64,000 bases of DNA from Brachybacterium huguangmaarense (GTDB lineage: Bacteria > Actinomycetota > Actinomycetes > Actinomycetales > Dermabacteraceae), in NCBI RefSeq assembly GCF_025725725.1, contig NZ_CP107020.1, positions 2,294,001 to 2,358,000 on the forward strand, given 5' to 3'. The translations under genes and the position numbers were made by a program. Shown one piece after another: positions 20,464-50,504 of the stretch. Under the pieces are notes generated by a model. That model was not told the origin of the DNA. It saw nothing but the letters and a program-made list of their open reading frames with translations, and did not search any database. The number at the start of each line of letters is the position of its first letter. Positions within the stretch are counted from its first letter, which is position 1.

Positions 20464-20550
20464 CGAGCGAACCTCCGGGTTCGTCGCGAGGAGCCGGCTC
20501 CGGTCGGCCGTCGCTGGTCCCTCGCGGACCGGATCCCTCCGGGATCGCAC

Positions 20551-20623
20551 GCCCCGTTCGTCTAGCGGCCCAGGACGTCGCCCTCTCACGGCGGTAACAC
20601 CGGTTCAAATCCGGTACGGGGTA
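20551..20623 (+). tRNA. tRNA-Glu (anticodon CTC), copy 2
   Basis: Identical to copy 1 over 73 nt except for C instead of T in the D-loop (GGCCCAGG against GGCCTAGG). It lies 87 bp downstream of copy 1, so the array Gln-Glu-Glu is probably one transcript or a recent tandem duplication. Confidence 0.95.
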
Positions 20624-20628
20624 CGAGC

Positions 20629-34703: not shown

Positions 34704-34781
34704 GAACGGAGATCATGCCACCGCGGGATGCGTCTGGGTACTCCCGGGGTCCCTCTCGTCGTGCGAGCCCGCACACACCCG

Positions 34782-36191
34782 TCAGCCGGCCGGCATCTCC
34801 ACGTGCACGACCTTGACGCGTGTCATCTCATCCAGCAGCTCGGGGCCGTACCCGAAGCCGTCGCCGCTGTCGCCCCGGGGCTGCGCGGAGCCTCCCGGGG
34901 CTCCGCCGAAGACGTTGTTGACCTTGAGCGTGCCGACCGAGAGGTCCGCGAGCGCCTGCTGCGTGTGCGCGAGACGGCCCGTCAGGACCGTCGCCGCGAG
35001 GCCGTACCGTCCCTCGCCGGCGCGGCGCAGTCCCTCGGCGAAGCTCTCGACGATCTGCACCGGCGCGACGGGCCCGAAGGTCTCCTCGCGCATGACGGTC
35101 ATCTCCGCGGTGCAGTCCCGCAGCACGGTGGCCGGATAGGCCGCTCCGGGTCCCTCGGGGACGACCGCTCCCGTGAGCGCGACCGCGCCCGCCTCGAGGG
35201 CCTGCGTGACCTGCTCGTGGACCGCCCGCCGCAGCCGGCGGTCGACGAGGGGCGCCAGGGCGCCGTCCCGGTCCCGGCGCGCCGCCTCCTCGGTGAGAGC
35301 CGTGAGGAACGGTGCGGCGATGGCTTGATGGACGTAGATGCGTTCGACGGAGGTGCAGATCTGTCCGGCGTTGGCGAAGGCGCCGAGCGCGGCCTGCGCG
35401 GCCGCCCACGTCGGGTCGACGTCGTCGTCGATGACCAGGGGATCGTTGCCGCCGTTCTCGCGGACGACATGCGCTCCGGTTTCGGCGGCGGCTCGGGCGA
35501 TGGCGTGTCCGGTGGCGCTCGAGCCGACGTGGGCGATGACGTCGACGTCCGGGGACGAGCTGAGCGCACGTCCCACGTCGGGGCCGCCGACGAGCGTGGT
35601 CAGGACGCCCTCGGGCAGGACGCCGGCGAGCACCTCGCCGAGGCGTCGTCCCACATGCGGGCAGCGCTCGCTGGGCTTGTGGATGACCGTGTTGCCGGTG
35701 ACCAGAGCGGCTCCGAGGAGGCCGGCGGCGACCGCGATCGGATCGTTCCACGGGGTCAAGGCCACGACCAGGCCCCGCGGCTCGGGAACGGTCCAGTCGG
35801 CGGCGAGCACGCCTCCCCGCAGACTGTGCCCGCGATGCACGGGCCCCAGCTCGGCATACTGGCGCAGCGTGCCCACGCCTGCGCGCACGCCGCCGAGGGC
35901 GTCGTCGGCGAGCTTGCCCGTCTCCCGGGTCGTCAGCTCGGCGAGCTCCTCCGCGTGCTGCTCGACGGCGTCGGCCGCCTCGTGCAGCAGCGCTCCGCGT
36001 CGCTCGGGCTCGGTGCGCGACCAGGTGCGAGCGGAGCTCAGGGCGGCGGTGATCGCGGCGCGGACCTGTGCCGGAGCGGCGCAGGGGAGCGTCCCCACCG
36101 GCGTGCCGTCGCGGGGATCGACCACGGAGATGGTGGGGAGGGGATCGGCGTCGGTGCGGCCGTCGAGGGATCCGTTGCGGGCGTCGCTCAT
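34782..36191 (-). CDS. NAD(P)-dependent aldehyde dehydrogenase
   Basis: A 469-aa ALDH-superfamily enzyme. The catalytic Cys lies in NAGQICTSVERIYV and the general-base Glu in RENGGNDPLVI (the usual ELGGK is altered to ENGGN). VVALTPWNDP and the NNVFGG C-terminal motif also fit. AGGAG precedes the ATG at 36191. It diverges from an SDR gene, so the two might act on the same alcohol/aldehyde. Substrate unknown. Confidence 0.86.
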   Translation of the reverse strand: MSDARNGSLDGRTDADPLPTISVVDPRDGTPVGTLPCAAPAQVRAAITAALSSARTWSRTEPERRGALLHEAADAVEQHAEELAELTTRETGKLADDALGGVRAGVGTLRQYAELGPVHRGHSLRGGVLAADWTVPEPRGLVVALTPWNDPIAVAAGLLGAALVTGNTVIHKPSERCPHVGRRLGEVLAGVLPEGVLTTLVGGPDVGRALSSSPDVDVIAHVGSSATGHAIARAAAETGAHVVRENGGNDPLVIDDDVDPTWAAAQAALGAFANAGQICTSVERIYVHQAIAAPFLTALTEEAARRDRDGALAPLVDRRLRRAVHEQVTQALEAGAVALTGAVVPEGPGAAYPATVLRDCTAEMTVMREETFGPVAPVQIVESFAEGLRRAGEGRYGLAATVLTGRLAHTQQALADLSVGTLKVNNVFGGAPGGSAQPRGDSGDGFGYGPELLDEMTRVKVVHVEMPAG

Positions 36192-36362
36192 GATGCTCCT
36201 GTCGCGGAAGGGGTCATGGGTCCGTCGCGAGCGTATCCAACGGACCCACGCCGCGCTTACCGCCTGGCCCGGGTGGTCGCAGCCGGGGACGGCCGTCGAT
36301 ACGGTGGGGCGAGCAGAGCGGCGCCCGGACAGGACGGCGCCGGAGACGAGTGAGGACCATCC

Positions 36363-37058
36363 ATGCCCATGACCAGCCCTGGACGCGTGCTCGTGACCGG
36401 AGGGGCCTCCGGCCTCGGTGCCGCGGTCGTCGCCGCGGTCCGTGCCGGCGGCGGCACCCCGATCGTCGTGGACCGCGACATCGCCGACGTGCAGGATGCC
36501 GCCGCCTACCAGGCGGACGTCGCGGACGCCGATGTCGTCGCCGACACCGTGGCACGCGCGATCGCTGACGCCGGAGGACTCGATGCCGTCGTCACGGCGG
36601 CGGGGATCGACCGCCCCGGAGCGCTCGAGGACGTCTCCTGGGCCGAGTGGGAACGGGTGGTGCTGGTCAACCTGATGGGCACGGTCTCGACCGTCCGGTC
36701 CGCCCTGCCGGCGCTCCGGGCCTCGCGCGGACGCGTCGTCACGGTCGCCTCGACGCTCGCGCTCAAGGGGGCCTCCGACGCGACCGCGTACTGCGCCTCC
36801 AAGTTCGGGGTGCTGGGGTTCACCCAGGCCCTCGCCGCCGAGCTCAAGGGCGAGGTCGGGGTCACCCAGCTGATCCCCGGGGGGATGCGGACGCGCTTCT
36901 TCGACGACCGCACCGAGCAGTACCGTCCGGCGGACGATGCGAGCCTGAACGATCCCGCCCATGTGGCCGACGCGGTCCTGTTCGCGCTCACGCAGCCTGC
37001 GGGATGCGAGGTGCGCGAGCTCTTCATCGCGCATGCCGACGAGCCCTCCTGGCCGTGA
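36363..37058 (+). CDS. Short-chain dehydrogenase/reductase
   Basis: A 231-aa SDR. TGGASGLGAAVVAAV is the cofactor loop, VTAAGIDRPG replaces the NNAG motif, and the active site is S with YCASK (Tyr and Lys present). The usual catalytic Ser is in VVTVASTLAL. It is followed 5 bp later, or with a GTGA overlap, by a GT2 gene, so both form an operon running toward the heptose cluster. Confidence 0.85.
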   Translation: MPMTSPGRVLVTGGASGLGAAVVAAVRAGGGTPIVVDRDIADVQDAAAYQADVADADVVADTVARAIADAGGLDAVVTAAGIDRPGALEDVSWAEWERVVLVNLMGTVSTVRSALPALRASRGRVVTVASTLALKGASDATAYCASKFGVLGFTQALAAELKGEVGVTQLIPGGMRTRFFDDRTEQYRPADDASLNDPAHVADAVLFALTQPAGCEVRELFIAHADEPSWP

Positions 37059-37063
37059 TCGCC

Positions 37064-37936
37064 ATGGAGGAGACCAGCACGGACCCGGCCGCGCAGGTCA
37101 CCGTGGTCGTCGCCACGCGGGACCGGCGCGAGGAGCTCGTCCGCCATCTCGGTCGGCACACCGCGCCGGTGATCGTCGTCGACAACGGCTCGACCGACGG
37201 CTCGGTCGCCGCCGTGCGCGCGGCGCACCCGCAGGTGCGCGTGCTCGCGCTGGGCCGCAATCTCGGGGCGGCGGCGCGCACGATCGGCGTCCAGCTCGCC
37301 GACACGCCGTATGTGGCCTTCGCCGACGACGACTCCTGGTGGGAGCCGGGTGCCCTCGAGCACGCCGTCTCGATCTTCTCGGCACGTCCGCGGCTCGCGG
37401 TGATCGCCGGCGCGATCCTGGTGGGCCCCGAGGAGCGGCCCGATCCGCTCAACGCGGTCCTGGCCTCCTCGCCGCTGGGCACGCCGCCCGACGGCCCCGG
37501 CCCCGCCCTGCTGGGCTTCGTCGCCTGCGGGGCGATCGTCCGGCGCAGCGCCTTCCTCGCGGTGGGAGGGTTCGACGACGTGGTGCGCTTCCCGGGGGAG
37601 GAGGAGCGCGTGGCGCTCGACCTGTTCGACGCCGGGTGGCAGCTGTGCCACGTGCCGGCGGTGCGGGCGCACCACCACCCCTCGCCGCGGCGGGACGCCC
37701 CGGACGCCCGCCGGGCCGCCCTGACCCGCAGCGCCGTGCTGACGGCGATCATGCGCCGGCCCGGAAGCGTGGTCGCGGCGCAGACCGTCGCCGCGGTGCG
37801 AGCCGGCGCACCGGGGCGCCGAGGACTGTTCCGAGCGCTTCCGGACGTGCCCGCCGCCCTCCGGCGACGTCGAGGCGTGTCGCCGTCGACCGAGGCCGTG
37901 CTCGCTGCCCTGGCGTCCGGCGGCGAGGGGGACTAG
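37064..37936 (+). CDS. Family 2 glycosyltransferase
   Basis: A 290-aa GT-A enzyme. VTVVVATRDRREELVRHL and IVVDNGSTDGS form the nucleotide-binding N-terminus, the metal-binding motif is FADDDSWW and the acceptor-site region is FPGEEERVALDLFDAGW. ATG 37064 is used; an in-frame GTG at 37055 overlaps the SDR stop and may be the coupled start. It ends next to the heptose-glycan operon on the other strand and may contribute a sugar to the same glycan. Confidence 0.82.
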   Translation: MEETSTDPAAQVTVVVATRDRREELVRHLGRHTAPVIVVDNGSTDGSVAAVRAAHPQVRVLALGRNLGAAARTIGVQLADTPYVAFADDDSWWEPGALEHAVSIFSARPRLAVIAGAILVGPEERPDPLNAVLASSPLGTPPDGPGPALLGFVACGAIVRRSAFLAVGGFDDVVRFPGEEERVALDLFDAGWQLCHVPAVRAHHHPSPRRDAPDARRAALTRSAVLTAIMRRPGSVVAAQTVAAVRAGAPGRRGLFRALPDVPAALRRRRGVSPSTEAVLAALASGGEGD

Positions 37937-37966
37937 GACCCGAGGCCGCTCGAGCTGCCTCGGGTC
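37937..37966. terminator. Bidirectional terminator at the end of the heptose-glycan operon
   Basis: A perfect 10-bp stem GACCCGAGGC/GCCTCGGGTC around a 10-nt loop that itself contains GCTCGAGC. It lies directly after the GT2 stop and 25 bp beyond the last codon of the convergent operon. Confidence 0.65.
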
Positions 37967-37973
37967 GACCCGC

Positions 37974-38002
37974 CCTCAGGCGACCCGTCCTCAGGCGACC
38001 CG
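37974..38002. repeat. 14-bp tandem duplication at the 3' end of the epimerase gene
   Basis: CCTCAGGCGACCCG occurs twice with a period of 15 bp (37974-37987 and 37989-38002). The second copy holds the stop codon of the nucleotide-sugar enzyme, so the duplication added a second stop-containing copy beyond it. Confidence 0.8.
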
Positions 38003-39052
38003 CGAGGCGTCGTCGGACAGCTCCTCGCGGAACCACGCGACCGTGCGGTCGAGCCCGGTGCGCCAGGAGATGGAGGGCTCCCAGCCCAGCACCTGGGTGG
38101 CGAGCGTCGTGTCCGGGCGTCGGACGGTGGGGTCGTCCACGGGCCGGGCCACGTGCTCCACGCTCGAGGAGGACCCGGTCGCGGCGATCACGTCGTGGGC
38201 GATCTGCAGGACGCTCTGCTCGTGCGGGTTGCCGATGTTCATGGGGCCGCTGTGTCCGCTCGCGGCCAGGGCGAGGACGCCCCGCACGAGGTCGTCGACG
38301 TAGCACACGCTGCGGGTCTGCGACCCGTCGCCGGCGACCGTGAGGGGCTCGCCCGCGAGCGCCTGCCGGATGAACGTCGGGATCGCGCGGCCGTCGAAGG
38401 GCCGCATCCGGGGACCGAAGGTGTTGAAGATGCGCACGATCGCCGTGTCGACGTCGTTCTCGGACCGGTAGGCCACCGTGAGGGCCTCGGCGAAGCGCTT
38501 GGCCTCGTCGTAGACGCCGCGCGGACCGACCGGGTTCACGTGGCCCCAGTAGTCCTCCGGCTGGGGGTGCACCTGCGGATCGCCGTACACCTCGGAGGTG
38601 GAGGCCAGGAGGAAGCGCGCGCCCTTCTCCTTGGCGAGCCCGAGGGCGTGCAGGGTGCCCAGCGCCCCCACCTTGAGGGTGTGGATCGGCAGCTTCAGGT
38701 AGTCGACCGGCGATGCGGGGGACGCGAAATGCAGCACCAGGTCGACCTCGTCGGGAACGTGCATGTAGTCGGTGATGTCGCACTGCACGAGGCGGAAGCC
38801 GGGGTCGCCGAGAAGATGGGCGACGTTGCGGGGGGTGCCGGTGAGGAAGTTGTCGACGCACAGCACCTCGGTGCCGCGTCGCCGCAGCTCGCTGCACAGA
38901 TGGCTGCCGAGGAAGCCCGCCCCGCCGGTGACGACCGCTCGCCGGAAGGGCGCGCCGTCGGAGAGATGAGGACGCGTGCTCGAGCGTTCCTCCGCAGGGG
39001 TCGCAGGGAGGGCGTCCGGGCGTCGGGTGGTCGGGAGGTCGGGCGATGTCAT
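37991..39052 (-). CDS. NAD-dependent nucleotide-sugar decarboxylase/epimerase, UDP-xylose synthase-like
   Basis: A 353-aa extended SDR. After a 35-residue disordered N-terminus come TGGAGFLGSHLCSELRRRG (NAD), LVLHFASPASPVDY, LLASTSEVYGDPQVHPQPE and the catalytic YDEAK. The PASPVDY and HPQPEDYWGHVNP stretches are typical of UDP-glucuronate decarboxylase, which makes UDP-xylose, rather than of the heptose epimerase HldD. Last gene of the seven-gene heptose operon; its ATG overlaps the stop of the kinase-transferase fusion. It probably supplies a pentose to the glycan; other UDP-sugar epimerase activity cannot be excluded. Confidence 0.82.
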   Translation of the reverse strand: MTSPDLPTTRRPDALPATPAEERSSTRPHLSDGAPFRRAVVTGGAGFLGSHLCSELRRRGTEVLCVDNFLTGTPRNVAHLLGDPGFRLVQCDITDYMHVPDEVDLVLHFASPASPVDYLKLPIHTLKVGALGTLHALGLAKEKGARFLLASTSEVYGDPQVHPQPEDYWGHVNPVGPRGVYDEAKRFAEALTVAYRSENDVDTAIVRIFNTFGPRMRPFDGRAIPTFIRQALAGEPLTVAGDGSQTRSVCYVDDLVRGVLALAASGHSGPMNIGNPHEQSVLQIAHDVIAATGSSSSVEHVARPVDDPTVRRPDTTLATQVLGWEPSISWRTGLDRTVAWFREELSDDASRVA

Positions 39053-41559
39053 GGTGCTCCTTCGATCGGATCGGGGTGGACGACGCAGGGGACGGCGGCG
39101 AGCTCGGAGGCACCGGCGCCCCCGCCTCCCGGCGCAGGCGGGCGGGCCGCGAGATGGTGGGCGGCCGCCTCCAGCACCTCGGTGACGGTCACCCGTTCCA
39201 GGCGCGGGTCGAGCGCCTCGGCATGGGGATCGCCCGGACGGTCGGCGTCGGGACCGGTCGAACCGTGCCACAGCACGGTGTGCAGCTCAGGATCGATGCG
39301 GGGCCCCCAGAGAGCGGGAGGTGTGGGCCCGAACAGCACCACCGACGGCACGGCGAGCGCCGTGGCGAGGTGGGCGATGCCGGTGTCGCCGCTCAGGACG
39401 AGAGATGCCCGGGAGACGGTCCGCGTGAGGCCGTCGAGGTCGAGGGTGCCCGACAGGTCGGTCACGCCGTCGATCCCCACGGCGACGGCCCTCGCCAGCT
39501 CGCGCTCGCCCTCGGAGCCCGTGATCAGCACGCGGTGCCCGGCCCGCGCGAGCGCGGCGGCCACGGTGCGCCACCGCTCGCGGGGCCAGCGACGGGACCC
39601 GGCCGCGGCACCGGGGTGGAGCACGACGGGGGCACCCGGCATGACGGGGTGATGGGCCCGGAGGCGGAGGTCGGCCGGTCCGCACGGGCCGCCCGCGGCG
39701 GTGACCAGGCGGCACCAGCGATCCACCTCGTGCTCGTCGGCGCACCAGCGCGGGCCGTGCCGTCCGCTGACGGGGTCCGCGAAGGCGATCAGGCGGCGCG
39801 GCCCGGTCGCCTCCAGCACGGCATGGCTGCGGGGTCCGCGGCCGTGCAGGTTGACGGCCATGTGGCCTCCGCCCGTCGTCGGCAGATCAGTGAGCCCGGA
39901 GCTCGGCAGCACGGCGTCGACCAGTCCGAGGCCCGTGAGCCAGGCGCCGATGCCCTCCGGCGCGGCCAGCACGATCCGATGGTCGGGCAGGAGCCGGCGG
40001 ATGCCCCGCAGTGGGGCGATGCCGGTCAGCGCATCGCCCAGACCGAGAGCGCGCAGCACGAGCACGTCACCGTCCCCGAGATGCTCCGGGGCGGCGTGAG
40101 CAGGCTCCGGGACGTGGCTCCCGGCATGGCTCCCCGGGTCACGGTCGTCGAGACCGCGGACCGTCTCCAGGATCGCGGTGGTCGATCGACCCGGCAGCTG
40201 CGGGAGCGTGACGACGACGCCGCCGAGGGCCTCGACGACCTCCGTCTCCGGGAGGCTGCGGGGGTCGTAGTCACCGCCCTTGACCCAGACGTCCGGGCCG
40301 AGTCGGCGCAGGGCGACGCGCGGATCGTCCTCCTCGAAGACGAGCACGGCGTCGACGCTGCGCAGCGCCTGGAGGATGCGGATGCGATCGTCCTGGGTGG
40401 TGACGGGGCGGTCCGGGCCCTTGAGACGCCGGACGGAGTCGTCCGAGTTCAGCAGCACGACGAGGGCGTCACCGAGGCGGCGGGCCTCCTCGAGGCAGCG
40501 GACGTGACCGGCGTGCAGGACGTCGAAGCAGCCTCCCGTGGCGACCAGGCGGCCGCCACGGCGCCGCACGTCCTCGACCACGGTGCGCACGTCGATCGGC
40601 AGGTCCGTGCCGAGGCCGTGCGCGGCGGGCCTCTCCGCCGCGCGCGCCCGGAAGGCCGCGGCCCCGCCCGCTGCGACCCACTGCCCGGAGGCGGCGACGG
40701 CGCGCTCGACGGCGACCGGCGGGGCGAGGTGGGCGGCGAGGGCGAGCGCCGCGGTCGAGGCGAACCGGTCGCCGGCACCGCACGGATCACCGTCATGGAC
40801 GGCGCGCGCGGGGACGTGCACGCTCGCATCGGCGGTCGCGAGGTGCGCGCCGTCACCGCCGGCCGTGACGACGACGGCGTGGGCGTCCCACTGCTCGCGC
40901 AGCCGGGCGGCCAGCTCCTGGCCCGAGACGGCCGACTCCTCGGTCACCGGTCCGCAGAGGGCCTCCGCCTCGGCCCGGTTGGGCGTGACGAGCGCGCACC
41001 CGGGCACGGGGGGCGCACCGCGCGGATGTGGATCCCAGACCACGATGCCGCCGGCCAGGGCGTGGTCGGTGAGCGCCGCGCGGACGGCCGGGTCGTGCGT
41101 GATGCCGCCTCCGTAGTCGGAGACCAGCACGGCGTCGGCGGCCGCCAGGACACGGGCGACATGTTCGGCGTCGACGTCGACGGGGGTGCCCGGCCCGCCC
41201 TCGTCGAGGCGGGCGAGGCCGTGTCCGCCGCTGCGGACGCGGGTCTTGGTCCGAGTGGCGCCGCGGTGGCCGAGACGGGCGATGCGAACCGGTCCCAGGG
41301 TCGCGACGAGCTCCCGGCCGGCCTCGTCATCGGCCAGCGGGGCGAGCAGGGTGACCTCGACGGCGGGGGCCTCGGCATCCTGGTCCGCCGGTGTCTCGGC
41401 ACACAGCAGCGCCGCGAGCCCGGCTCCTCCGGGGCTCGAGCGCGTGGTCGCGACGTCGACCACGGGCACCGGGGCGTCCGGTGCCAGTCGCGTGGACGAG
41501 CCGTCGATGTCCCGGTCCAGCAGGGCGTCCCCCACCACCACGATCCGCAGGGTGCTCAT
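39049..41559 (-). CDS. Trifunctional fusion: HldE-type heptose kinase, heptose-1-P nucleotidyltransferase and GT9 heptosyltransferase
   Basis: An 836-aa single reading frame with three enzymes. Residues 1 to about 310 are a PfkB/HldE kinase (GGAGLAAL near 44; DPCGAGDRF at 258-266). Residues about 335-470 are an HldE-type nucleotidyltransferase with TGGCFDVLHAGH (341-352) and VWVKGGDYDP (424-433). From about 496 to 815 is a GT9 heptosyltransferase-like domain (VLRALGLGDALTG; GDTGIAHLATAL). Order kinase-transferase is that of bacterial HldE; the GT9 extension is new to me. It would phosphorylate heptose-7-P, activate heptose-1-P and transfer the heptose. Starts and stops overlap neighbours by 4 bp. 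Confidence 0.85.
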   Translation of the reverse strand: MSTLRIVVVGDALLDRDIDGSSTRLAPDAPVPVVDVATTRSSPGGAGLAALLCAETPADQDAEAPAVEVTLLAPLADDEAGRELVATLGPVRIARLGHRGATRTKTRVRSGGHGLARLDEGGPGTPVDVDAEHVARVLAAADAVLVSDYGGGITHDPAVRAALTDHALAGGIVVWDPHPRGAPPVPGCALVTPNRAEAEALCGPVTEESAVSGQELAARLREQWDAHAVVVTAGGDGAHLATADASVHVPARAVHDGDPCGAGDRFASTAALALAAHLAPPVAVERAVAASGQWVAAGGAAAFRARAAERPAAHGLGTDLPIDVRTVVEDVRRRGGRLVATGGCFDVLHAGHVRCLEEARRLGDALVVLLNSDDSVRRLKGPDRPVTTQDDRIRILQALRSVDAVLVFEEDDPRVALRRLGPDVWVKGGDYDPRSLPETEVVEALGGVVVTLPQLPGRSTTAILETVRGLDDRDPGSHAGSHVPEPAHAAPEHLGDGDVLVLRALGLGDALTGIAPLRGIRRLLPDHRIVLAAPEGIGAWLTGLGLVDAVLPSSGLTDLPTTGGGHMAVNLHGRGPRSHAVLEATGPRRLIAFADPVSGRHGPRWCADEHEVDRWCRLVTAAGGPCGPADLRLRAHHPVMPGAPVVLHPGAAAGSRRWPRERWRTVAAALARAGHRVLITGSEGERELARAVAVGIDGVTDLSGTLDLDGLTRTVSRASLVLSGDTGIAHLATALAVPSVVLFGPTPPALWGPRIDPELHTVLWHGSTGPDADRPGDPHAEALDPRLERVTVTEVLEAAAHHLAARPPAPGGGGAGASELAAVPCVVHPDPIEGAP

Positions 41560-43460
41560 GCGCGTCCGCCCGTCTCCGCGCTCGCCGCGGCCGGGATCGG
41601 GGTCGGCGGTGCGAGCGCGACCGTCGGCGCCGGAGAGGTCGCGGTCGTGGCCGTCGACGTCGAGACGGGGAGCAGGCGCGCGTCGACGGCGGCGCACAGG
41701 GCGTGCACGAGGGCCAGGTGGAGCTCCTGGACCACCGAGCCGCTCGGTGCGTCGACGGCGATCGCCTCGTCCGCGAGACCGGCCAGCGGATTGGGGCCGG
41801 GTCCGGTGAGCGCCCAGACCCTCAGACCGCACGCGCGGGCCCGCTCGGCGGCTGCGAGCACGTTGGAGCTGCGGCCGCTCGTGGACAGCAGCACGAGGAC
41901 GTCGCCGCTCCGGCCATGGGCCGCGACCTGCCGAGCGAACACCTCGTCGCGGCCGTAGTCGTTGAGCAGCGCGGTCAGGCTCGACGTCTCGGACGACAGG
42001 CAGAGGGCGGACAGGGGGACGCGTTCGTCGACGAAGCGCCCGACGAGCTCCGCGGTGAGGTGCTGCGCCTCGGCGGCGCTGCCCCCGTTGCCGGCTGCCA
42101 GCAGGCGCCCTCCCGCGGTGAGCACGCCCGCGAGGTGAGCCCCCCAGCGGTCGATGGTCGTCGCGTGCGCGGAGGCGCGGGCCGATGCGGTCCGCAGCTC
42201 GTCGAGGTGGCGCTCGAGCCACCGGCCGGCCCGGTCACCCGAGGGACGCCGTCCGCGGTAGCGGCTCAGCACCTGGCGATACGCCCGCTCGGTCGCCTCG
42301 GCGACGCGTTCCCAGCCGTAGAGGCGCTCGACGCGCTCGCGGCCGGCGCGGCCCATCTCGGCGGCCTCTCGCGGGTCCGTCAGGATCCGGCGCAGGGCGG
42401 CGGCCGTCGCGGACGCGTCCCGCGGCGGGACGTGCAGTCCCGTGCGCTCGTGCTCGATGGTGTCCAGGAACCCTCCGACGGCGCTGCCCACGATCGGCCG
42501 GCCCGCGGCCATGGCCTCGAGCGGGACCATGCCGAAGGGCTCGTACCACGGGGCGCAGGCGACGACGTCCGTGTCGGCGAGCAGCTCGCCGATCGTCTCG
42601 TGGTCGATGCGCCCGAGCAAGTGCACGCGCTCGGCGACGCCGCACTCCCGGGCGACGGCACGTAGGCGGAGCGCCTCGGGGTCCCCGTCGAGGTCGTCGC
42701 GGTCCGGCCCGCCGGCGATCACCAGCTCGGTGTCCTCGAGTCCGTCGGTCGCGGTGAGCTGGGCGAGGGCGCGCACGAGCGTCTCGACGCCCTTGCGCTC
42801 GACCAGGCGTCCGAGCGACAGGATGCGAGGCGGCCGCGCCTCGCCGGGCGGGGGCGACGGCGTGAAGGCGTCGAGATCGACGCCGCAGGGCACGATCTCG
42901 ATGCGGGCGGGATCGGCGCCGAGGGCGAGCAGCTCCTCGCGCTCGTCACGGCACGTCGCCAGCACCAGATCGGCACCGGCCGCGAGCTCCCGCTCGACGT
43001 CAAGCCGGTCCGGCGGGCTGGTGTCGGCCGAGCCCTGATGGCGGCGCTTGACCACGCCGAGCGCATGGAACGTCTGCACGACGGGGATGCCCGCGGCGGC
43101 GGCGGCGCGTCGCGCGGCGATGCCCGACATCCAGAAATGGGCGTGCACGAGGTCGGGGGTCCCGACGGTGGACCAGTGCCGGGCGGTCCAGCGTCCGAAG
43201 TCGTCCATGAACGGCTCGAGCTCGTCCTTGGGCAGTGGCGCGGGAGGCCCTGCCGGCACGTGGACCACGCGGACGCCGTCGGCGAGGTCGACGCTCTCGG
43301 CGAGGTCGGGATCGTCGCGTCGGGTGTAGACGGTCACGTCGTGGCCGCGTCGTGCGAGGTGCTGTGCGAGGGCGGCGACCACGACGTTCTGGCCCCCGGC
43401 GTCGACGCCGCCGAGGGCGGCGAGGGGGCTGGCGTGCTCGGAGATCATGGCAAGTCTCAT
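41556..43460 (-). CDS. Fusion of family 4 glycosyltransferase with GmhA-type sedoheptulose-7-phosphate isomerase
   Basis: A 634-aa protein. Residues 1 to about 405 are a GT-B family 4 transferase (GGVDAGGQNVVVAAL; PWYEPFGMVPLEAMAAGRP). From about 413 to 600 is a GmhA isomerase: AAGNGGSAAEAQHLTAELVG carries the conserved SIS loop and catalytic Glu, and QELHLALVH the catalytic His; LLSTSGRSSNVL binds phosphate. GmhA converts sedoheptulose 7-phosphate to D-glycero-D-manno-heptose 7-phosphate, the first step of the pathway. The last 35 residues are a Thr/Ala/Pro-rich tail. Both ends overlap neighbouring genes by 4 bp. Confidence 0.86.
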   Translation of the reverse strand: MRLAMISEHASPLAALGGVDAGGQNVVVAALAQHLARRGHDVTVYTRRDDPDLAESVDLADGVRVVHVPAGPPAPLPKDELEPFMDDFGRWTARHWSTVGTPDLVHAHFWMSGIAARRAAAAAGIPVVQTFHALGVVKRRHQGSADTSPPDRLDVERELAAGADLVLATCRDEREELLALGADPARIEIVPCGVDLDAFTPSPPPGEARPPRILSLGRLVERKGVETLVRALAQLTATDGLEDTELVIAGGPDRDDLDGDPEALRLRAVARECGVAERVHLLGRIDHETIGELLADTDVVACAPWYEPFGMVPLEAMAAGRPIVGSAVGGFLDTIEHERTGLHVPPRDASATAAALRRILTDPREAAEMGRAGRERVERLYGWERVAEATERAYRQVLSRYRGRRPSGDRAGRWLERHLDELRTASARASAHATTIDRWGAHLAGVLTAGGRLLAAGNGGSAAEAQHLTAELVGRFVDERVPLSALCLSSETSSLTALLNDYGRDEVFARQVAAHGRSGDVLVLLSTSGRSSNVLAAAERARACGLRVWALTGPGPNPLAGLADEAIAVDAPSGSVVQELHLALVHALCAAVDARLLPVSTSTATTATSPAPTVALAPPTPIPAAASAETGGRA

Positions 43461-44416
43461 GGGATGAGCCTTTCCAGGAGGTGGTTCCAGTCCGTGAGGA
43501 ACCGGTCGATGCCGAAATGGGCCAGGGCGTGGTCGCGGGCCGCCGCGCCGGCGGCCGCGGCCTCGCCCGGGTCGTGCAGCCAGAGGCGGGCGCGGGTCGC
43601 GAGCTCGCTGAGATCGGCGGACAGCAGTCCGGCGGCGGGTGGCACGGCGCGCGGTGCCTCGGTGGTGGGGAGCCCGAGCACGGGCATCCCGATCATCATG
43701 GCTTCGAGCAGCGCCAGGCCCAGGCTGGTCCAGCGGTAGGGGTGCAGGTAGAGGCGATGGCGTCCGAGCGTCGGATGCAGCTGGTCGTGCGAGAGGCTCT
43801 CGTGGACATGGCCCGCGAGGTGCTCGGCCACGTCGGCCAGGCGCTGGGTCTGCATCCCGTACACCTCGACGGGGAGGCCGCGCGCGAGGTACACGAGAAG
43901 GTCGGTGCCGGCGATGCGCTCGCGGCGCACCGGCTCGTTGACCACGACGGCGGCCGACGGGATGGTGCCGGTGTAGAGAGGGCCGGGGTCGAGGATGCCG
44001 TGCTCGATCACCGCGGTCGGCGCGAGCCCGTTGTCCCACATGATCCGGTTGAAGTGCGTGACGTGGACCAGGGGGATGTCATCACGATCGGCGACCGGGT
44101 GGCGGGTGGCGGCGGCCGGGCCGCGTGGCGTGTCGTGCTCGAGGTAGACGGCGGGCAGCTCGCTCCCCGGGCGCCGACCGGTCCAGGCGCGGGCCAGGTC
44201 GAGCTCGTGGGGACGCTGGAGCACGACCGCGTCGATCTGCTCGTCCGCGAGCTGCTCGGGGGTGACCTCCACGGCCGCGGCGGGCCAGTCCCAGGTGCGG
44301 GCGCGACCGCGCCCGTCAGGGCCGCGGTCCTCGACGACGGGCAGCAGATAGGTGTGCTCGCCCTGGACGAACGAGGTGGTCCACGAGCCGTGGACATGCC
44401 AGATCAGGATGCGCAT
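43457..44416 (-). CDS. Glycosyltransferase-like protein, GT-B fold
   Basis: A 319-aa protein starting MRILIWHVHGSWTTSFVQG. The C-terminal half has the GT-B donor-site pattern HPYRWTSLGLALLEAMMIGM (E-x7-E type), and the N-terminal half has VVLQRPHELDLARAW and HVTHFNRIMWDNGL. It belongs to a family I know only as a companion of heptose-type glycan clusters. It overlaps the next gene by 4 bp and the preceding GT9 gene by 13 bp. Specificity unknown. Confidence 0.75.
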   Translation of the reverse strand: MRILIWHVHGSWTTSFVQGEHTYLLPVVEDRGPDGRGRARTWDWPAAAVEVTPEQLADEQIDAVVLQRPHELDLARAWTGRRPGSELPAVYLEHDTPRGPAAATRHPVADRDDIPLVHVTHFNRIMWDNGLAPTAVIEHGILDPGPLYTGTIPSAAVVVNEPVRRERIAGTDLLVYLARGLPVEVYGMQTQRLADVAEHLAGHVHESLSHDQLHPTLGRHRLYLHPYRWTSLGLALLEAMMIGMPVLGLPTTEAPRAVPPAAGLLSADLSELATRARLWLHDPGEAAAAGAAARDHALAHFGIDRFLTDWNHLLERLIP

Positions 44417-45522
44417 CGATGTCCTCCTGTCAGCGGGGTCGCGGTGGCTGCGGTCGGGCCGCCGAGCTCGTCGACCGCGGCGACGACCTCCTCGGGTGTG
44501 ACACCGGACAGGCACGGGTGGCCGGGCACCGGGCACTGCCGGGCACGGCTGTCCCGGCACGCGGCGTGCTGGTCGCCGAGCACGACGGTGGGGACGCCGT
44601 AGGGAGCCCACCGCAGGGCGGGCACGACCGGGGAGAACAGCGAGACGACCGGGGTGCCGACGGCTGCGGCCAGGTGCGCGGGCCCCGTGTTCCCGACGAC
44701 CGCGCAGTCCGCGGCCTCGAGCACGGCGGCCAGGCCCGCGAGATCGGTGCGGCCGGCGAGGTCGACGAGGGCGTCCGCTGCGGTTCCGCGCCACCGGGAT
44801 CCGTCGGCGCCGAGGATCGTGAGGGCGCCATGGCGGGCCCGGAGCACCAGGTCACGCTCACCCGGTCCGCCGGTGAGGACCACCCGGCGTCCCGATCGCA
44901 CGAGGGCGGCCGTCAGCTCCGCCGCGTGATCGGGTCGGAGCGCGCGGGAGGGAACGGACGCTCCCGGATGCAGGACCACGTAACGCTCGCCCTCGAGGGC
45001 CGGCGGCACGGGCGGCAGAGGGCGCCGCACGGCCAGGAGCCGCTCGGCGCCGACGGCGGGAGGGGCGCCGGCGGCGGCCGCGAGCGCGAGCGCGGCCTCC
45101 ACCTCGTGCCCGCCCCCGGGCGGATCGGCTCGGTGGTGCCGCACGTCCAGGAGGGTGCCGGGATAGTCGGCGCTGGTCGCCGCGATGTGCCCGATGCCCG
45201 CGAGGCGCGCGAGCAGCGCCATCGGCAGTGGGCTCTGGTGGAAGGAGGTGAAGATGACCGCGGTCGTGAAGTCGCGGTCGGCGAGGGTCGCGATGAGCCG
45301 ATGGGTGGCCACCGGGTCGACCTCGGGCGGCGCGACACCGGACCACGGCGCAGCGAACTCGAGCACCTCGTCGACCCCGGGCAGGAGCCGCGCGGCGGCG
45401 GAGCCCGCAGGGGAGGCCAGCACGTCGACGGGGTGGCCGAGACGTCCGAGCGCACGGATCGCCGGCCCCGTGAGCAGCACGTCACCGTCGGAGTCGAGGC
45501 GGACCGCCAGGACGCGGGTCAT
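44404..45522 (-). CDS. Family 9 glycosyltransferase (heptosyltransferase-like)
   Basis: A 372-aa GT9 protein: AVRLDSDGDVLLTGPAIRAL (N-terminal), VLHPGASVPSRALRPD (acceptor/donor hinge) and VGNTGPAHLAAAVGTPVVSL plus CPVPGHPCL near the C-terminus. GT9 enzymes transfer heptose from ADP-heptose in LPS-producing bacteria. A second GT9 domain is fused to HldE two genes downstream, so at least two heptoses are probably added. The start overlaps the GT2-GmhB stop (ATGA). Confidence 0.86.
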   Translation of the reverse strand: MTRVLAVRLDSDGDVLLTGPAIRALGRLGHPVDVLASPAGSAAARLLPGVDEVLEFAAPWSGVAPPEVDPVATHRLIATLADRDFTTAVIFTSFHQSPLPMALLARLAGIGHIAATSADYPGTLLDVRHHRADPPGGGHEVEAALALAAAAGAPPAVGAERLLAVRRPLPPVPPALEGERYVVLHPGASVPSRALRPDHAAELTAALVRSGRRVVLTGGPGERDLVLRARHGALTILGADGSRWRGTAADALVDLAGRTDLAGLAAVLEAADCAVVGNTGPAHLAAAVGTPVVSLFSPVVPALRWAPYGVPTVVLGDQHAACRDSRARQCPVPGHPCLSGVTPEEVVAAVDELGGPTAATATPLTGGHRCAS

Positions 45523-47120
45523 CGCCGGCCCCCGGCGGCATCCCGACCGGGCAGGACGAGAGCGACGGCCTCGCCCAGGGTCGCCGCGACCTCGGGGGCC
45601 GACGTCACCTCGGCGGGCAGTGTCTGCGGCGTCGGCACCAGGACGCTGCGGGCGCCTGCCGCGTGCGCGGCCTCGACATCGGCCCCGATGTCACCGATGA
45701 CGACGCACTCCTGGGGCCGCACACCGAGGGCGGCCGCCGCTGCCGTCACCATGCCGGGCATCGGCTTGCGGCACGTGCACCCGGCATCGGGTGCATGGGG
45801 GCAACGCTGCCACGTGCCGAACGGGCCGAGGAGCTCCCGGATGCGGTGGTCGACCGCATCGACCTGCGCGGTCGTCAGCCGGCCCCGCCCGATGCCGCTC
45901 TGATTGGAGACCACGCCGAGCGCGAGGCCCGCGTCGCGGAGCGCGGCCAGCGCCTCGCGGGCCCCCTCGACCGGGCGCACCCGCTCGGGGTCACCGTTGT
46001 ACGGCACGTCGTGCACGAGCGTGCCGTCGCGGTCGAAGAGCACGGCACGGACAGGGGGCGGCCAGGGGACGGTGCGGCGGTGGCGGATCGTCCCGCGGAG
46101 GCGGTGGCGCACGGCGGCGACGGGGATCGCGGCGCTCGTGACGCCCATGCGCGCGAGCTCGGAGGCGAAGCGGTCATCGCCCGGTCGCGGCCCCGGGAGC
46201 ACGCGGCGCGCGAGGAAGCGTGTGTACTGCACGCCCCACACGGCCAGACCCGCTCCCAGGAGGCCCCGACCGGCGCGCGCGGTGGAGCACCGTCCCACCG
46301 CGGTGGCGAGGACGGTCCCGGATGCGGCCGCCGCGAGCGCAGCGGTGGTGACCAGGTGAGCGCGGAGGGCGCCGCGGGGCGCCTCCGCCTGCTCCCGCCA
46401 TCGCGGACCGTGGAGGCGGCGCATGAGCGCGTCGTCGGCGTTGCCGGCCTGGACGCGGAGGCTCACGAGGGCGTCGGCGGGTCGGGCGGGGTGGAGCACC
46501 CGGCGCTCGCCGCGCACGAGCTGCCATCCCGCGTGCCTCACGCGCAGGGCCAGATCGGCGTCCTCGCGGTAGGCACGGGGGAAGCGTTCGTCGAATCCGT
46601 CGACGGCCTCGAGCGCGGCGGGACGATAGGCCATGTCGGCCGTCGCCCAGGCGGCCTGCTCGAGGGAGGCGGTATTGCGCTCCCAATCGGTGGGTCGCCG
46701 ATCCGCGGGGCGCGGGACCTCGATGCGACCCTGGCTGCCCCCGGTTCCCGGCGCACAGGACGCGAGATCCCGCGTGAGCCGGCCCGCCCAGTCCCGGGGG
46801 AGCTCGACGTCGTCGTCCAGGAAGGCGATCCACGTCGCACCGCTGCGGCGTGCGCTGCGCCAGCCCCGGTTGCGAGCGGCCGCAGGACCGCGGCCGTACC
46901 CGCGCACCGCGCGCACCGGGCCGCCGGCGTGAGCGGGCAGGTCGAGCGGCGGCAGGTCGGCGCCGCGCCGGTCGTCGACCACGACCACCTCGAGCGGGAC
47001 GGCGCCTCCGGCGGCCAGGTCCTGGTCGGCGAGGGTCTCGAGCAGGCGAGCGAGCGAGGGGCGGCCGAGGGAGGGGATGACGACCGCGTAGGTCTCCGAC
47101 CCCGTCGGCACAGCGCTCAC
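45519..47120 (-). CDS. Fusion of family 2 glycosyltransferase with GmhB-type heptose-bisphosphate phosphatase
   Basis: A 533-aa protein. Residues 1 to about 250 are a GT2 domain (VVIPSLGRPSLARLLETL; the metal site FLDDDVEL; acceptor-side PRAYREDADLALRV). A hydrophobic stretch at 255-305 may touch the membrane. From about 355 to 515 is a HAD phosphatase: FDRDGTLVHDVPYNGDP (nucleophile D363), and the zinc loop with C440, H442, C448, C450 that marks GmhB. GmhB removes the 7-phosphate of heptose 1,7-bisphosphate. GTG start 47120 overlaps the carbamoyltransferase stop as GTGA. Confidence 0.85.
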   Translation of the reverse strand: MSAVPTGSETYAVVIPSLGRPSLARLLETLADQDLAAGGAVPLEVVVVDDRRGADLPPLDLPAHAGGPVRAVRGYGRGPAAARNRGWRSARRSGATWIAFLDDDVELPRDWAGRLTRDLASCAPGTGGSQGRIEVPRPADRRPTDWERNTASLEQAAWATADMAYRPAALEAVDGFDERFPRAYREDADLALRVRHAGWQLVRGERRVLHPARPADALVSLRVQAGNADDALMRRLHGPRWREQAEAPRGALRAHLVTTAALAAAASGTVLATAVGRCSTARAGRGLLGAGLAVWGVQYTRFLARRVLPGPRPGDDRFASELARMGVTSAAIPVAAVRHRLRGTIRHRRTVPWPPPVRAVLFDRDGTLVHDVPYNGDPERVRPVEGAREALAALRDAGLALGVVSNQSGIGRGRLTTAQVDAVDHRIRELLGPFGTWQRCPHAPDAGCTCRKPMPGMVTAAAAALGVRPQECVVIGDIGADVEAAHAAGARSVLVPTPQTLPAEVTSAPEVAATLGEAVALVLPGRDAAGGRR

Positions 47121-48754
47121 CGGGGGCCCTCCACGAACGCGGCCCGTCGCACCAGGTGAGGGCCGAGCACGAGCGCGGCCACGGGGGCGGAGCCGAACAG
47201 CTCGAGGGCGTCGCGCGGGTCGTCGACCATGGGGCGGCCGGCCGTGTTCAACGAGGTGTTGACGACCACGGGCACGCCCGTGCGCTCCTCGAACGCGCGC
47301 AGCAGCGCGGCGATGCCCGGGACGTCGTCGTCCGAGATCGTCTGGATCCGCGCCGTGCCGTCGACGTGGGTGACCGCCGGGATCCGCTCGCGCCACTCGG
47401 GGGCGACCGTGTGCACGAAGAGCATGAACGGGCTCGGGATCGGCCCGTCGGAGAAGATCTCCGCGGCCCGCTCCTCGAGCACCATCGGCGCGACGGGCCG
47501 GAACTGCTCGCGACCCTTGACGTCGTTGAGGCGTTCGAGGTTCTCGGCCCGCATCGGGTTGGCGAGCAGCGAGCGACGTCCGAGCGCGCGAGGCCCGAAC
47601 TCGCTGCGGCCCTCGAACCAGGCGATCACGCCGTCGTCGGCCAGGATGTCCGCGACCTCCCCGGCGAGATCGTCGGGCGTCGTGAACGGGACCTGAGCCG
47701 TGCGCAGCCACTGTGCCAGCTCCTCGTCGTCCCAGGACCGCCCGAGGGCAGCGGTGGGCTGCGGCGCGCCGAGCTCGCCCGCCTCCTGCGCCACGTGGAG
47801 AGCGGCGCCGAGCGCGGTGCCGGAGTCGCCCGAGGCGGGCTGGACCCACACCTCGGTGAAGGGCGACTCGCGCCAGATCCGCGAGTTCGCGACGCAGTTC
47901 AGCGCGGTGCCACCCGCCATGGTGAGCACGCTGTCCCCGGTCTGCTCATGCAGCCAGGTGGCCAGGTCGACGAGCGTCTCCTCGACGACGGCCTGCACGG
48001 ACGCCGCGAGGTCGGCATGGTCACCTCCCCAGGTGCCGTCGTCGACACGGCGGGGGGCGAAGCGGCTCCAGTCGGGGGTGAGGGCCCGGAAGCCGCCGTC
48101 ACCGGTCGCGTGGATGTGCTCGCGGAGCTCACCGGCGAAGCGGGGCCGGCCGTAGGAGGCGAGCGCCATGACCTTGAACTCGTCGCTCGAGCGCAGGAAG
48201 CCGAGATGGTCGGTGAGGGACTCGTAGACCAGCCCCAACGAGTCCGGGAGTTCCTGGCGCCGCAGGATCTCGAGCTCCCCGTCGCGGTATCGGCCTGCCA
48301 GGTGGGAGTGCGCCTCGCCCCTGCCGTCGAGCACCAGGACGCTGCTGGTCCGCGACGGGGCGGCCAGGCCGGCGGAGGCGGCGTGGGCCACGTGGTGCGG
48401 GACGTACCGGACCCTCCCGGGGTCCAGCCCCGGCAGCGCCTCGGCCAGGAAGGCGGGTGCCCGACGCACGTAGTCGATCCGCAGGGGGTCCGACGGATCG
48501 TCGGGGATGTGGGCGGCGAGATCCGGATCGAAGCCGTACGCGACGACGTCGAGGTCGGCCGGTTCGATCCCGGCCTCCTCGAGGCACCAGCGCATGGAGA
48601 GCTCGGGCAGCTCCCACGCCGAGAACGGCACGGGGCGTTTGGCGTGTTTACGGCGCGAGAAGCGCTCTTCCTCCGCAGCGGCCACGATCTGCCCGTCCAC
48701 GACCAGTGCCGCGGACGAGTCGTGGAAGACGGCGTTCACTCCCAGGATTCGCAT
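47117..48754 (-). CDS. Carbamoyltransferase, NodU/CmcH family
   Basis: A 545-aa two-domain O-carbamoyltransferase. The N-terminal Kae1-like part has ILGVNAVFHDSSAAL, EEERFSRRKH, and the metal-binding HHVAHAASA; GGTALNCVANSRI follows. The C-terminal domain has FEGRSEFGPRALGRRSLLA and VNTSLN. Such enzymes use carbamoyl phosphate and ATP to carbamoylate a sugar hydroxyl. It is the first gene of the seven-gene operon. A CACACT -10-like box ends 7 nt before the ATG, and a nested palindrome lies 100-145 bp upstream. It probably decorates the heptose glycan. Confidence 0.87.
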   Translation of the reverse strand: MRILGVNAVFHDSSAALVVDGQIVAAAEEERFSRRKHAKRPVPFSAWELPELSMRWCLEEAGIEPADLDVVAYGFDPDLAAHIPDDPSDPLRIDYVRRAPAFLAEALPGLDPGRVRYVPHHVAHAASAGLAAPSRTSSVLVLDGRGEAHSHLAGRYRDGELEILRRQELPDSLGLVYESLTDHLGFLRSSDEFKVMALASYGRPRFAGELREHIHATGDGGFRALTPDWSRFAPRRVDDGTWGGDHADLAASVQAVVEETLVDLATWLHEQTGDSVLTMAGGTALNCVANSRIWRESPFTEVWVQPASGDSGTALGAALHVAQEAGELGAPQPTAALGRSWDDEELAQWLRTAQVPFTTPDDLAGEVADILADDGVIAWFEGRSEFGPRALGRRSLLANPMRAENLERLNDVKGREQFRPVAPMVLEERAAEIFSDGPIPSPFMLFVHTVAPEWRERIPAVTHVDGTARIQTISDDDVPGIAALLRAFEERTGVPVVVNTSLNTAGRPMVDDPRDALELFGSAPVAALVLGPHLVRRAAFVEGPR

Positions 48755-48856
48755 GGATCGGAGTGTGCCATTCAACTCACCTCCCGACGAATGGTCCGCG
48801 GCCTCCCCGCCGGCGGTGATGAGGAGAAGAGAAGCGCTGACCACTGCCGTCTTCGC

Positions 48857-48898
48857 CGAGAAGCGCTTCTCGACCACGTGGTCGAGAAGCGCTTCTCG
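48857..48898. promoter_or_regulatory. Nested 42-bp palindrome: two LacI-type operator-like boxes
   Basis: CGAGAAGCGCTTCTCG, itself a perfect 16-bp palindrome, occurs at 48857-48872 and 48883-48898 with centres 26 bp apart; the spacer ACCACGTGGT is also palindromic, so all 42 bp form one perfect palindrome. A third partial copy, GAGAAGCGCT, is at 48829-48838. Central AAGCGCTT fits LacI-family operators. It sits upstream of the carbamoyltransferase gene, in the divergent promoter region (48755-49152). Confidence 0.7.
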
Positions 48899-49038
48899 CC
48901 CCGGCTGCCTGTCTCGTCAGGCCCATCGATCCCCGAAACGGCCCTGACCGGGGATGGGACCGCCCCGTCGCCATCGCCGAGGGGCGGAGGCATCGTCGCC
49001 CGCCTCGCGTTCCGCGCGCCGTTCGATGCCCGTGAACC

Positions 49039-49067
49039 TTGTTCCGACGAGTCCCCGTGCCTAGGCT
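49039..49067 (+). promoter_or_regulatory. Promoter of the 92-aa protein gene
   Basis: TTGTTC (49039-49044) and TAGGCT (49062-49067) spaced by 17 bp give a good housekeeping promoter, with a leader of about 80 nt before the ATG at 49153. Confidence 0.5.
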
Positions 49068-49152
49068 CATGAGCCCATCGATCACCACGGAGCGAACGAA
49101 TCTCCGCTGATGCCGCAGGGTGCCGGCGGAGATGCGACGGACAGGAGAGACC

Positions 49153-49431
49153 ATGGCATCGGAGAGCCGCACGACCACCGATCACGACGAGATCCGCCGC
49201 TGGGTCGAGGACCACGACGGGCATCCGGCGAGCGTCCGTGGCACGGCCGAGGACGACGACCTCGGAGTGCTGCGGTTCGACTTCCCCGGCGGGGCGGGCT
49301 CGGACGACCTCCAGCGCGTCTCGTGGGACGACTGGTTCGTGAAGTTCGACCAGGAGGAGCTCGCGCTGCTGTACCAGGAGAAGCACGCCGACGGCTCGGA
49401 CTCGACGTTCTTCAAGCTCGTCCAGCGCTGA
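49153..49431 (+). CDS. Small conserved acidic protein
   Basis: A 92-aa protein, acidic and without a signal peptide. HDEIRRWVEDHDGHPASVRG, LRFDFPGG and VSWDDWFVKFDQEELALLYQ with a terminal FFKLVQ are shared with a widespread bacterial family of roughly this length that I recall being mislabelled as branching enzyme. AGGAGA precedes the ATG. It is cytoplasmic; function unknown. Confidence 0.8.
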   Translation: MASESRTTTDHDEIRRWVEDHDGHPASVRGTAEDDDLGVLRFDFPGGAGSDDLQRVSWDDWFVKFDQEELALLYQEKHADGSDSTFFKLVQR

Positions 49432-49471
49432 GCGCGCCCGGGCAGGACGCCGGTGTGACGCGGCCGTCGCG

Positions 49472-50275
49472 CTAGGCGTCCTCGAGCAGCGTCTCGCCGA
49501 GGCGGTCGATCTCGTCGTCGGACAGCCCGAGCCCGTCGCGCACGTAGCCGTCGATGCCGTCGAAGCGCGCCCGGGCCTCGTCGAGCGCCGTGTCGAGGTA
49601 TTCCTCGCGCACGCCGAGCACGGGCTCGAGCAGCTCGGGGTCGCCGACCGCCTGCTCGAAGCGGTCGAAGAGGGGCCGTAGCGCGGGCAGCAGGTCGTCG
49701 TTCGTGCGCAGGTAGTCCGCGCGCACCTCGTCCTCGTCGACGCCGAGGGCGAGCAGGAGCGAGGCGGCACCCCAGCCCGTGCGGTCCTTGCCCGTCGTGC
49801 AGTGGAAGAGCGCAGGCTCGCGGCCGTCGTCGAGGAGCCCGCGAAACAGCCCGCGATAGGAGCGGCGCGCGCTCGGCAGCGACACGAGATCGCGGTAGGC
49901 GTCGCGGAACACCCGCGCCGCCCCTCCCGCGCTCAGGATGCGCTCGGCCTGCTTGGGGTCCTCGACCACGGGTCCGAGCTGGGCGGCAGCATTGTCCGAG
50001 GCATCGGCCAGCACGTCGAGCTCGACGCGGCGCATGCCCTCGGGGACGCGATCGGGACGCTGCTCGGACTCCTGGGCGGTGCGCAGGTCGTAGACCGTGC
50101 GGATCCCGAGGCCCACGACGGCCGCGGTGCCGTCCTCGTCGAGACGGCTCAGATCCACCGAGCGGAACAGGATGCCCGGGCGCACGCGCCGGCCATCGCC
50201 GGTGCTCTTCCCACCGAGGTCGCGCAGGTTGGGCAGGGTCGGGATGACCGGGGTGGTCGGCTGCGAGGTGGGCAT
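49472..50275 (-). CDS. Tyrosine-protein phosphatase (PtpB-like)
   Basis: A 267-aa phosphatase of the PtpB/DUF-type dual-specificity group. The P-loop is HCTTGKDRTG (158-167), with nucleophile Cys159 and Arg165; the preceding NLRDLGGKSTGDGRRVRPG and RSVDLSRLDEDG are typical. Lid and C-terminal helices are present. PtpB-like enzymes hydrolyse phosphotyrosine or phosphoinositides in actinobacteria; the substrate here is unknown. The ATG has no strong Shine-Dalgarno, and a plus-strand gene starts 230 bp away. Confidence 0.87.
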   Translation of the reverse strand: MPTSQPTTPVIPTLPNLRDLGGKSTGDGRRVRPGILFRSVDLSRLDEDGTAAVVGLGIRTVYDLRTAQESEQRPDRVPEGMRRVELDVLADASDNAAAQLGPVVEDPKQAERILSAGGAARVFRDAYRDLVSLPSARRSYRGLFRGLLDDGREPALFHCTTGKDRTGWGAASLLLALGVDEDEVRADYLRTNDDLLPALRPLFDRFEQAVGDPELLEPVLGVREEYLDTALDEARARFDGIDGYVRDGLGLSDDEIDRLGETLLEDA

Positions 50276-50504
50276 GCGCGCTCTCCGTTCGTGGGCGGTG
50301 ACAGACGGTGCCCTGCGGAACCGGGCGAGAGTCCCGACACTATCGCCACCGGACCGGTCGCGGACCGGGTGCGAGCGGGAGGAGCGGCAAACCCTCCCGG
50401 CCGTCTGTCATCCAGCGGGACTAGGCTGGGGCGAGCGTCCGCGGAGAGCCCCGCGCCCACGGCCGGCCCCCGACGCATCCACATCCGAACTCGAGGAGGC
50501 CCCC

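Follow-up and report, generated by a model that had tools for sequence, protein, structure and literature searches.

What does an actinobacterium build with a complete set of heptose-activating enzymes, each of them joined to a glycosyltransferase? The question is raised by a 64,000-nucleotide stretch of Brachybacterium huguangmaarense DNA (contig NZ_CP107020.1, positions 2,294,001 to 2,358,000; hereafter the window, in whose numbering coordinates are given), which holds seven overlapping minus-strand genes at 37991..48754. To our knowledge, lipopolysaccharide (LPS) is not expected in the phylum of this organism. We find that the operon is of a kind already described as cwg in Streptomyces, a point missed by the earlier note on this DNA, and that it occurs here in a new and heavily fused form inside an insert. 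The best explanation, to which we assign a probability of roughly 80%, is that this is a cwg-type locus for a carbamoylated, heptose- and pentose-containing glycan of the cell envelope, most likely acquired by horizontal transfer.

The operon and its counterpart in Streptomyces

As described in the relevant passages of the ArgR and sigmaE papers and related sources, the cwg ('cell wall glycan') operon of Streptomyces coelicolor comprises cwgA-L (SCO6179-6190); CwgA is annotated there as a nucleotide-sugar dehydratase, cwgH as a phosphoheptose isomerase and cwgI as bifunctional, and the product is called a 'predicted' or 'putative' cell wall glycan (literature drawn on for this and other points: PMC6767563, PMC5839063, PMC3902916, PMC4630627, PMC5563000, PMC13011467, PMC3123327, PMC10148868, PMC10948575, PMC7725333). 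According to the same passages, the operon is a sigmaE target in chromatin immunoprecipitation and is induced by vancomycin, that is, switched on under cell-wall stress. The cwg promoter string, taken from a table in PMC6767563, has an exact match in 1 of 392 genomes of a presumably Streptomyces-type genus. Directly 3' of this match lie twelve unfused genes like cwgA-L, in the order UXS-CT-GT2-GmhB-GT9-GTB-GT4-GmhA-HldE-GT9-GT2-GT2 (UXS, UDP-glucuronate decarboxylase; CT, O-carbamoyltransferase; GT, glycosyltransferase), which are 42-69% identical to the window pieces. Because the published promoter immediately precedes an unfused version of this gene set, the window operon can be identified with the cwg module, and the evidence from sequence for this gene identity is strong.

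The order from CT to GT9 (CT-GT2-GmhB-GT9-GTB-GT4-GmhA-HldE-GT9, cwgB-J) is the same in S. coelicolor and the window, and both have UXS and GT2. Eleven of the 12 cwg roles are present in the window insert, in which the second terminal GT2 was not found. Whereas UXS comes first in cwg, it is last in the window, where it follows HldE-GT9 on the same strand as it does in loci L034, L072, L074, L131 and L147. The window further differs in having three fusions, a convergent GT2, added short-chain dehydrogenase/reductase (SDR) and aldehyde dehydrogenase genes, and a different upstream element, with no sigmaE-like promoter found close by.

The overlaps between the seven genes, computed from their stops and the chosen start codons, are 4, 4, 4, 13, 4 and 4 bp in ascending coordinates, in agreement with the earlier note. 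All the domain families that it had named, including the GmhA-GT4, GmhB-GT2 and HldE-GT9 combinations, were recovered by Pfam and NCBIfam searches and by solved-structure comparisons. Gene 1 (47117..48754), at the cwgB position, encodes a 545-residue NodU/TobZ-type CT (PF16861/PF02543) whose best solved-structure match is PDB 7xb6, followed by the novobiocin enzyme, GdmN and TobZ (carbamoyltransferases, 1.6e-95). Next comes a 533-residue fusion of a GT2 with the HAD phosphatase GmhB (45519..47120; cwgC and cwgD positions), with a hydrophobicity maximum at residue 257, between the domains. A stand-alone GT9 of 372 residues (44404..45522; cwgE position; PF01075, 1.3e-20) is followed by a GT-B glycosyltransferase of 319 residues (43457..44416; cwgF position; PF13524, 2.5e-8, and alignment), which served as our marker for the cluster. 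The 634-residue product of 41556..43460 joins an MshA-like GT4 to the SIS protein GmhA (cwgG and cwgH positions), and the 836-residue product of 39049..41559 joins the HldE kinase and the HldE nucleotidyltransferase to a second GT9 (cwgI and cwgJ positions), for which heptosyltransferase I is the top solved-structure match by sequence (7.6e-15). The last gene (37991..39052) encodes a 353-residue UXS-type SDR, the cwgA homologue; among solved structures compared by sequence, human UXS1 is closest (3.8e-106). As the earlier note had said, no flippase, polymerase or priming transferase is encoded among the seven genes by Pfam search.

Searched separately, the SIS, PfkB and HAD parts matched heptose enzymes. 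GmhA matches phosphoheptose isomerases by sequence (1e-38), the HldE kinase half a heptose-7-phosphate kinase (2.1e-20), the nucleotidyltransferase half a 'putative cytidylyltransferase' (2.9e-31) and GmhB a D,D-heptose-1,7-bisphosphatase (1.1e-20). Alignment with solved structures places GmhA His/Glu and Gln/His, HldE GAGD and HxGH, GmhB DxD and CxH..CxC, and UXS SxE and YxxxK at residues that we take to be catalytic or metal-binding. These homologies support the earlier proposal of a complete route in the window from sedoheptulose 7-phosphate to nucleoside diphosphate (NDP)-heptose by way of an isomerase, a kinase, a phosphatase and an HldE-type nucleotidyltransferase. Part of the literature describes an (F/L)XXGRSTT motif as a mark of promiscuous nucleotidyltransferases (PMC11573728); in the window the GRSTT, including its arginine, is present, and the first motif position is Q (among 14 aligned relatives, 10 have Y and 4 have F). 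The first four activities and the GT9 transferases are common to the LPS pathway to ADP-L,D-heptose (GmhA, HldE, GmhB, HldD, WaaC/F), which also has HldD, whereas the window genome has no HldD above the cut-off (best match 106.7 of 274.6 bits). We therefore rejected an LPS-like destination, in line with the earlier note, which expected a different glycan or a secondary metabolite. The genome also holds two genes of the UDP-Glc/GDP-Man dehydrogenase family, a possible source of UDP-glucuronate. Outside the window it carries a second strong SIS_2 domain (G000:C1:2251027-2251425; loci L001 and L070).

We propose that UXS would convert UDP-glucuronate to UDP-xylose, and that NDP-heptose and UDP-xylose would supply about six transferases. 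Assembly of a heptose- and pentose-containing oligosaccharide would fall to the two GT9 and two GT2 enzymes, the GT4 and the GT-B; the NodU/TobZ-type enzyme would carbamoylate it, and the product would join the cell envelope.

Fusions between neighbouring genes

Related loci were gathered from the organism's own order, where a threshold of E 0.001 gave matches in 76 of 149 genomes, many of them through generic domains alone, and from named genomes, of which the best 80 of at least 576 confirmed places were used. Loci were chosen by likeness to the window, together with the strongest HldE matches in the own order. The gene layout was compared across 118 fetched loci and the window; leaving out the own-genome controls L070 and L071, which are without the cluster, gave 117 sequences. 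A second set of counts, used for the fusions below, drops two duplicate pairs, and sharing of a reading frame was tested for successive pieces only. Across loci the conserved order is CT, GT2, GmhB, GT9, GT-B, GT4, GmhA and HldE; another GT9 and UXS lie close by. The nine core pieces, from CT to the HldE nucleotidyltransferase (HldN), are complete in 81 of the 117 sequences and collinear on a single strand in 67 of these 81; in most of the 14 others, GmhB and GT-B face away from the remaining pieces. At E 1e-40 or better the GT-B marker occurs in 39 of 396 sampled genomes of the phylum and in 26 of 237 genera, own genome and genus included. Eight loci (L057, L059, L061-L064, L067 and L120) carry a second, diverged HldE-type gene beside the cluster, without CT and UXS. 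Its kinase part is 30-36% identical in the seven measured loci (all except L120), and it may belong to a sister system.

The earlier note's claim that every heptose enzyme is fused to a glycosyltransferase holds in the window, but such fusion is not typical of the family. GT2 and GmhB share a single frame in 48 of 86 loci, GT4 is fused upstream of GmhA in 19 of 101 (one of them, L146, doubtful and counted through a frame-shifted GT4), and GmhA is fused to a downstream HldE in 19 of 103; no locus has GmhA fused to both partners. The kinase and nucleotidyltransferase halves of HldE are joined almost everywhere (101/102), and HldE-GT9 is found in the window alone (1/87). Thus GT2-GmhB and GT4-GmhA recur in the other genomes listed, but HldE-GT9 does not. 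Among loci with Streptomyces in their titles, GT2-GmhB is fused in 0 of 24, GmhA-HldE in 0 of 28 and GT4-GmhA in 1 of 28, the doubtful case. Since streptomycetes carry the same set unfused, the fusions are not needed for the pathway.

On a midpoint-rooted tree in which some nodes are weakly supported, the partner state of GmhA changes at least 11 times over 97 loci. Taken singly, the fusions require 4, 8 and 5 changes, where shuffling gives means of 27.6, 16.9 and 15.9; they are thus inherited in clades, yet were gained or lost more than once. All fusions seen among the successive pieces compared link neighbours of the conserved order. This pattern is explained better by repeated merging of adjacent, translationally coupled genes, which would fix stoichiometry and co-localise the enzymes, than by selection for a particular pair of donor and transferase.

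The tridomain NDP-heptose synthetases (GmhA-HldK-HldN) that PMC11573728 describes from actinobacteria contain the same enzymes as the window. In these proteins GmhA is fused to HldE, the arrangement counted above in 19 related loci, whereas in the window GmhA is in frame with GT4, not with HldE, and HldE is joined to GT9. The window HldE-GT9 gene is one net frame change away from the unfused state. In a structure model of its product (mean predicted local distance difference test score, pLDDT, 85.2; predicted template modelling score, pTM, 0.48) the HldE and GT9 units are folded, and residues 466-490 between them form a low-confidence linker with pLDDT below 50. The model gives no sign of a fixed interface, which we count as weak evidence.

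The insert, its companion genes and the upstream palindrome

The operon lies in an insert of about 16 kb (34490..50476, ends approximate) flanked by the genes for a K+ transporter and an alcohol dehydrogenase, as defined by comparison with three relatives of the same genus. In these three of the four relatives fetched, the two flanking genes are 0.46, 2.2 and 4.5 kb apart, versus 16 kb in the window; in the fourth, no right-flank match was found in the examined stretch, which stops at the contig end. The K+ transporter is present in 21 of 38 genus genomes. The GT-B profile matches 36 of the 38 at E 0.001, the match being full-length in the own genome only and partial, at 42.8 bits or less, in the others. 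G+C content is 74.6% in the insert and 72.9% in the rest of the window. In a FastTree phylogeny of 97 loci and 2322 columns, the window groups with Kocuria polaris L072 (support 0.52), then with L034 (0.99), and then with Dietzia and Citricoccus loci (1.0). Most likely the locus was acquired horizontally, with Kocuria-type nearest kin and the transfer presumably directed into the window genome; loss of the cluster in the relatives seems less likely.

The earlier note bounded the cluster at 37991..48754, which holds for the seven genes; the set reaches further, as a GT2, an SDR and an aldehyde dehydrogenase accompany the cluster in other genomes. The GT2 (~37046-37936, plus strand, putative start; PF00535, 1.5e-18) is convergent with the operon and homologous to the two terminal cwg GT2 genes. 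Of the 109 loci that have GT-B, counting the window here and below, 58 contain this GT2, which is 71% identical to its L072 counterpart. The SDR (36363..37058, plus strand; Pfam) occurs in 60 of the 109, at most 72% identical over about 160 residues, and in many other loci lies between HldE and GT9. The aldehyde dehydrogenase (34782..36191, minus strand; PF00171) occurs in 30 of them, at most 67% identical. As a guess, these companions might serve to oxidise a sugar. At the right end of the insert lies a Y_phosphatase3-type phosphatase gene (49472..50275, minus strand; PF13350), found at E 1e-20 in 1 of the 38 genus genomes, the own one. Elsewhere in the window, a tRNA-Gln gene and two tRNA-Glu genes stand in a row at 20278-20624.

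A conserved, palindromic, operator-like element upstream of the operon is new here. Two perfect copies of GAGAAGCGCTTCTC (48858-48871 and 48884-48897) stand 26 bp apart, 104-143 bp upstream of the CT start, so that 48858-48897 is a perfect 40-bp palindrome composed of two 14-base palindromes. In the 420 bp that precede the CT match, a site that departs from the 12-base core at no more than two positions is present in 29 of 87 loci, five of which have two, a count that somewhat overstates the evidence as the loci are related and not independent. By comparison, 40 rounds of shuffled upstream sequence gave a mean of 0.7 and a maximum of 3 of 87, and the best of up to 60 permuted palindromes reached 5 of 87. 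Sites occur in 29 of 61 loci without UXS directly before CT versus 0 of 26 with it (28/59 versus 0/26 with duplicates dropped). By title, the site-bearing loci include Georgenia, Cellulomonas, Knoellia, Pedococcus, Planobispora, Planomonospora, Microbispora, Streptosporangium, Sphaerisporangium and Nonomuraea; the nearest relatives L034, L072, L074 and L076 have no site upstream of CT. The twin palindrome may be the operator of a repressor, perhaps of the LacI type. Judged by the exact and one-mismatch sites, a wider regulon in the own genome was rejected: the sole other exact site (C1:3017714) is apparently inside a coding sequence, and a one-mismatch site (C1:690878) is apparently coding as well, at a start reading (V)KRFS. 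The genome has 23 further two-mismatch sites, one within the operon; no regulator was identified. Among the entries listed by a literature motif search, none was recognised as this element.

Weighing the explanations

Several observations weigh against a cwg-type envelope glycan. All heptose domains score under the NCBIfam equivalog cut-offs (HldE 277.9 of 521 bits, gmhA 146.9 of 209.45, HldE nucleotidyltransferase 175 of 181.5, GmhB 113.4 of 178), and the exact substrates are therefore predictions. The SDR and the aldehyde dehydrogenase are unexplained, we found no exporter, polymerase or ligase in the cluster, the sister node of window and Kocuria has a support of only 0.52, and the passages of the cwg literature cited here give no structure for the product. 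A strict sigmaE-like promoter pattern is absent at close range upstream of the window operon and was found neither in 25 further UXS-first loci that had sufficient upstream sequence (26 were listed) nor in 61 CT-first loci; looser patterns gave at most 2 of 25, and in the window one loose match, about 520 bp before the first gene. We therefore rejected a sigmaE promoter as the shared regulator: it marks regulation in S. coelicolor and not the gene set, and the link to wall stress comes from that species.

The earlier note read the fusions as channelling, in which an unstable or scarce NDP-heptose is passed from enzyme to transferase. All four pathway activities in the window are indeed fused to transferases, the HldE nucleotidyltransferase next to a GT9, of the heptosyltransferase family, makes a chemically sensible pair, and GT2-GmhB and GT4-GmhA recur in many other loci. 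The products of GmhA and GmhB are, however, early intermediates, which glycosyltransferases are not known to use. These enzymes stand at the first and third of four steps, with GT4 and GT2, not GT9, as their fusion partners, and GmhA has HldE as its partner instead in 19 of 103 loci. The sole fusion able to channel, HldE-GT9, is confined to one locus, and its model has a low-confidence linker and a pTM of 0.48. As the main reading, channelling is thus not supported, and we consider it quite improbable. That fusion may itself be a sequencing or assembly error, a possibility that we take seriously and yet judge doubtful. In none of the four near relatives examined (L034, L072, L074 and L076) do HldE and GT9 share a gene or a frame, and the junction is poorly conserved with three 4-base homopolymers; on the other side, the frame is open across 836 codons, the listed completeness of the assembly is 99.99%, in 2 contigs, and other neighbour fusions are common in related loci. 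We also think it improbable that the pathway is merged into a few multi-enzyme proteins in which HldE-GT9 passes NDP-heptose directly, for a carbamoylated heptose-xylose wall glycan undescribed in Gram-positives and under a repressor at the twin palindrome. Heptose antibiotics are known from actinobacteria, and the solved structures most like the CT, after 7xb6, are those of antibiotic enzymes (novobiocin, GdmN, TobZ), so the product could be a secondary metabolite that carries heptose, of the septacidin or hygromycin B kind, instead of a wall glycan. None of the seven genes is a scaffold gene, though, the GT-B marker occurs in 26 of 237 sampled genera, with the gene order mostly conserved, and the S. 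coelicolor operon is described, in the sources cited above, as a wall-stress target; we hold this the most remote of the alternatives.

With a cwg-type envelope glycan as the preferred reading, the operon predicts a heptose-containing and probably carbamoylated envelope glycan in many actinobacteria. The comparison of more than 100 actinobacterial loci leads to a testable prediction of the product, namely heptose, pentose and carbamate, and indicates that the operon moves between genera. Because these enzymes occur in nature both split and fused, they provide material to test whether fusion matters. Since NDP-heptoses activate the vertebrate receptor ALPK1, as stated in part of the literature (PMC11573728), Gram-positive producers would be of wider interest.

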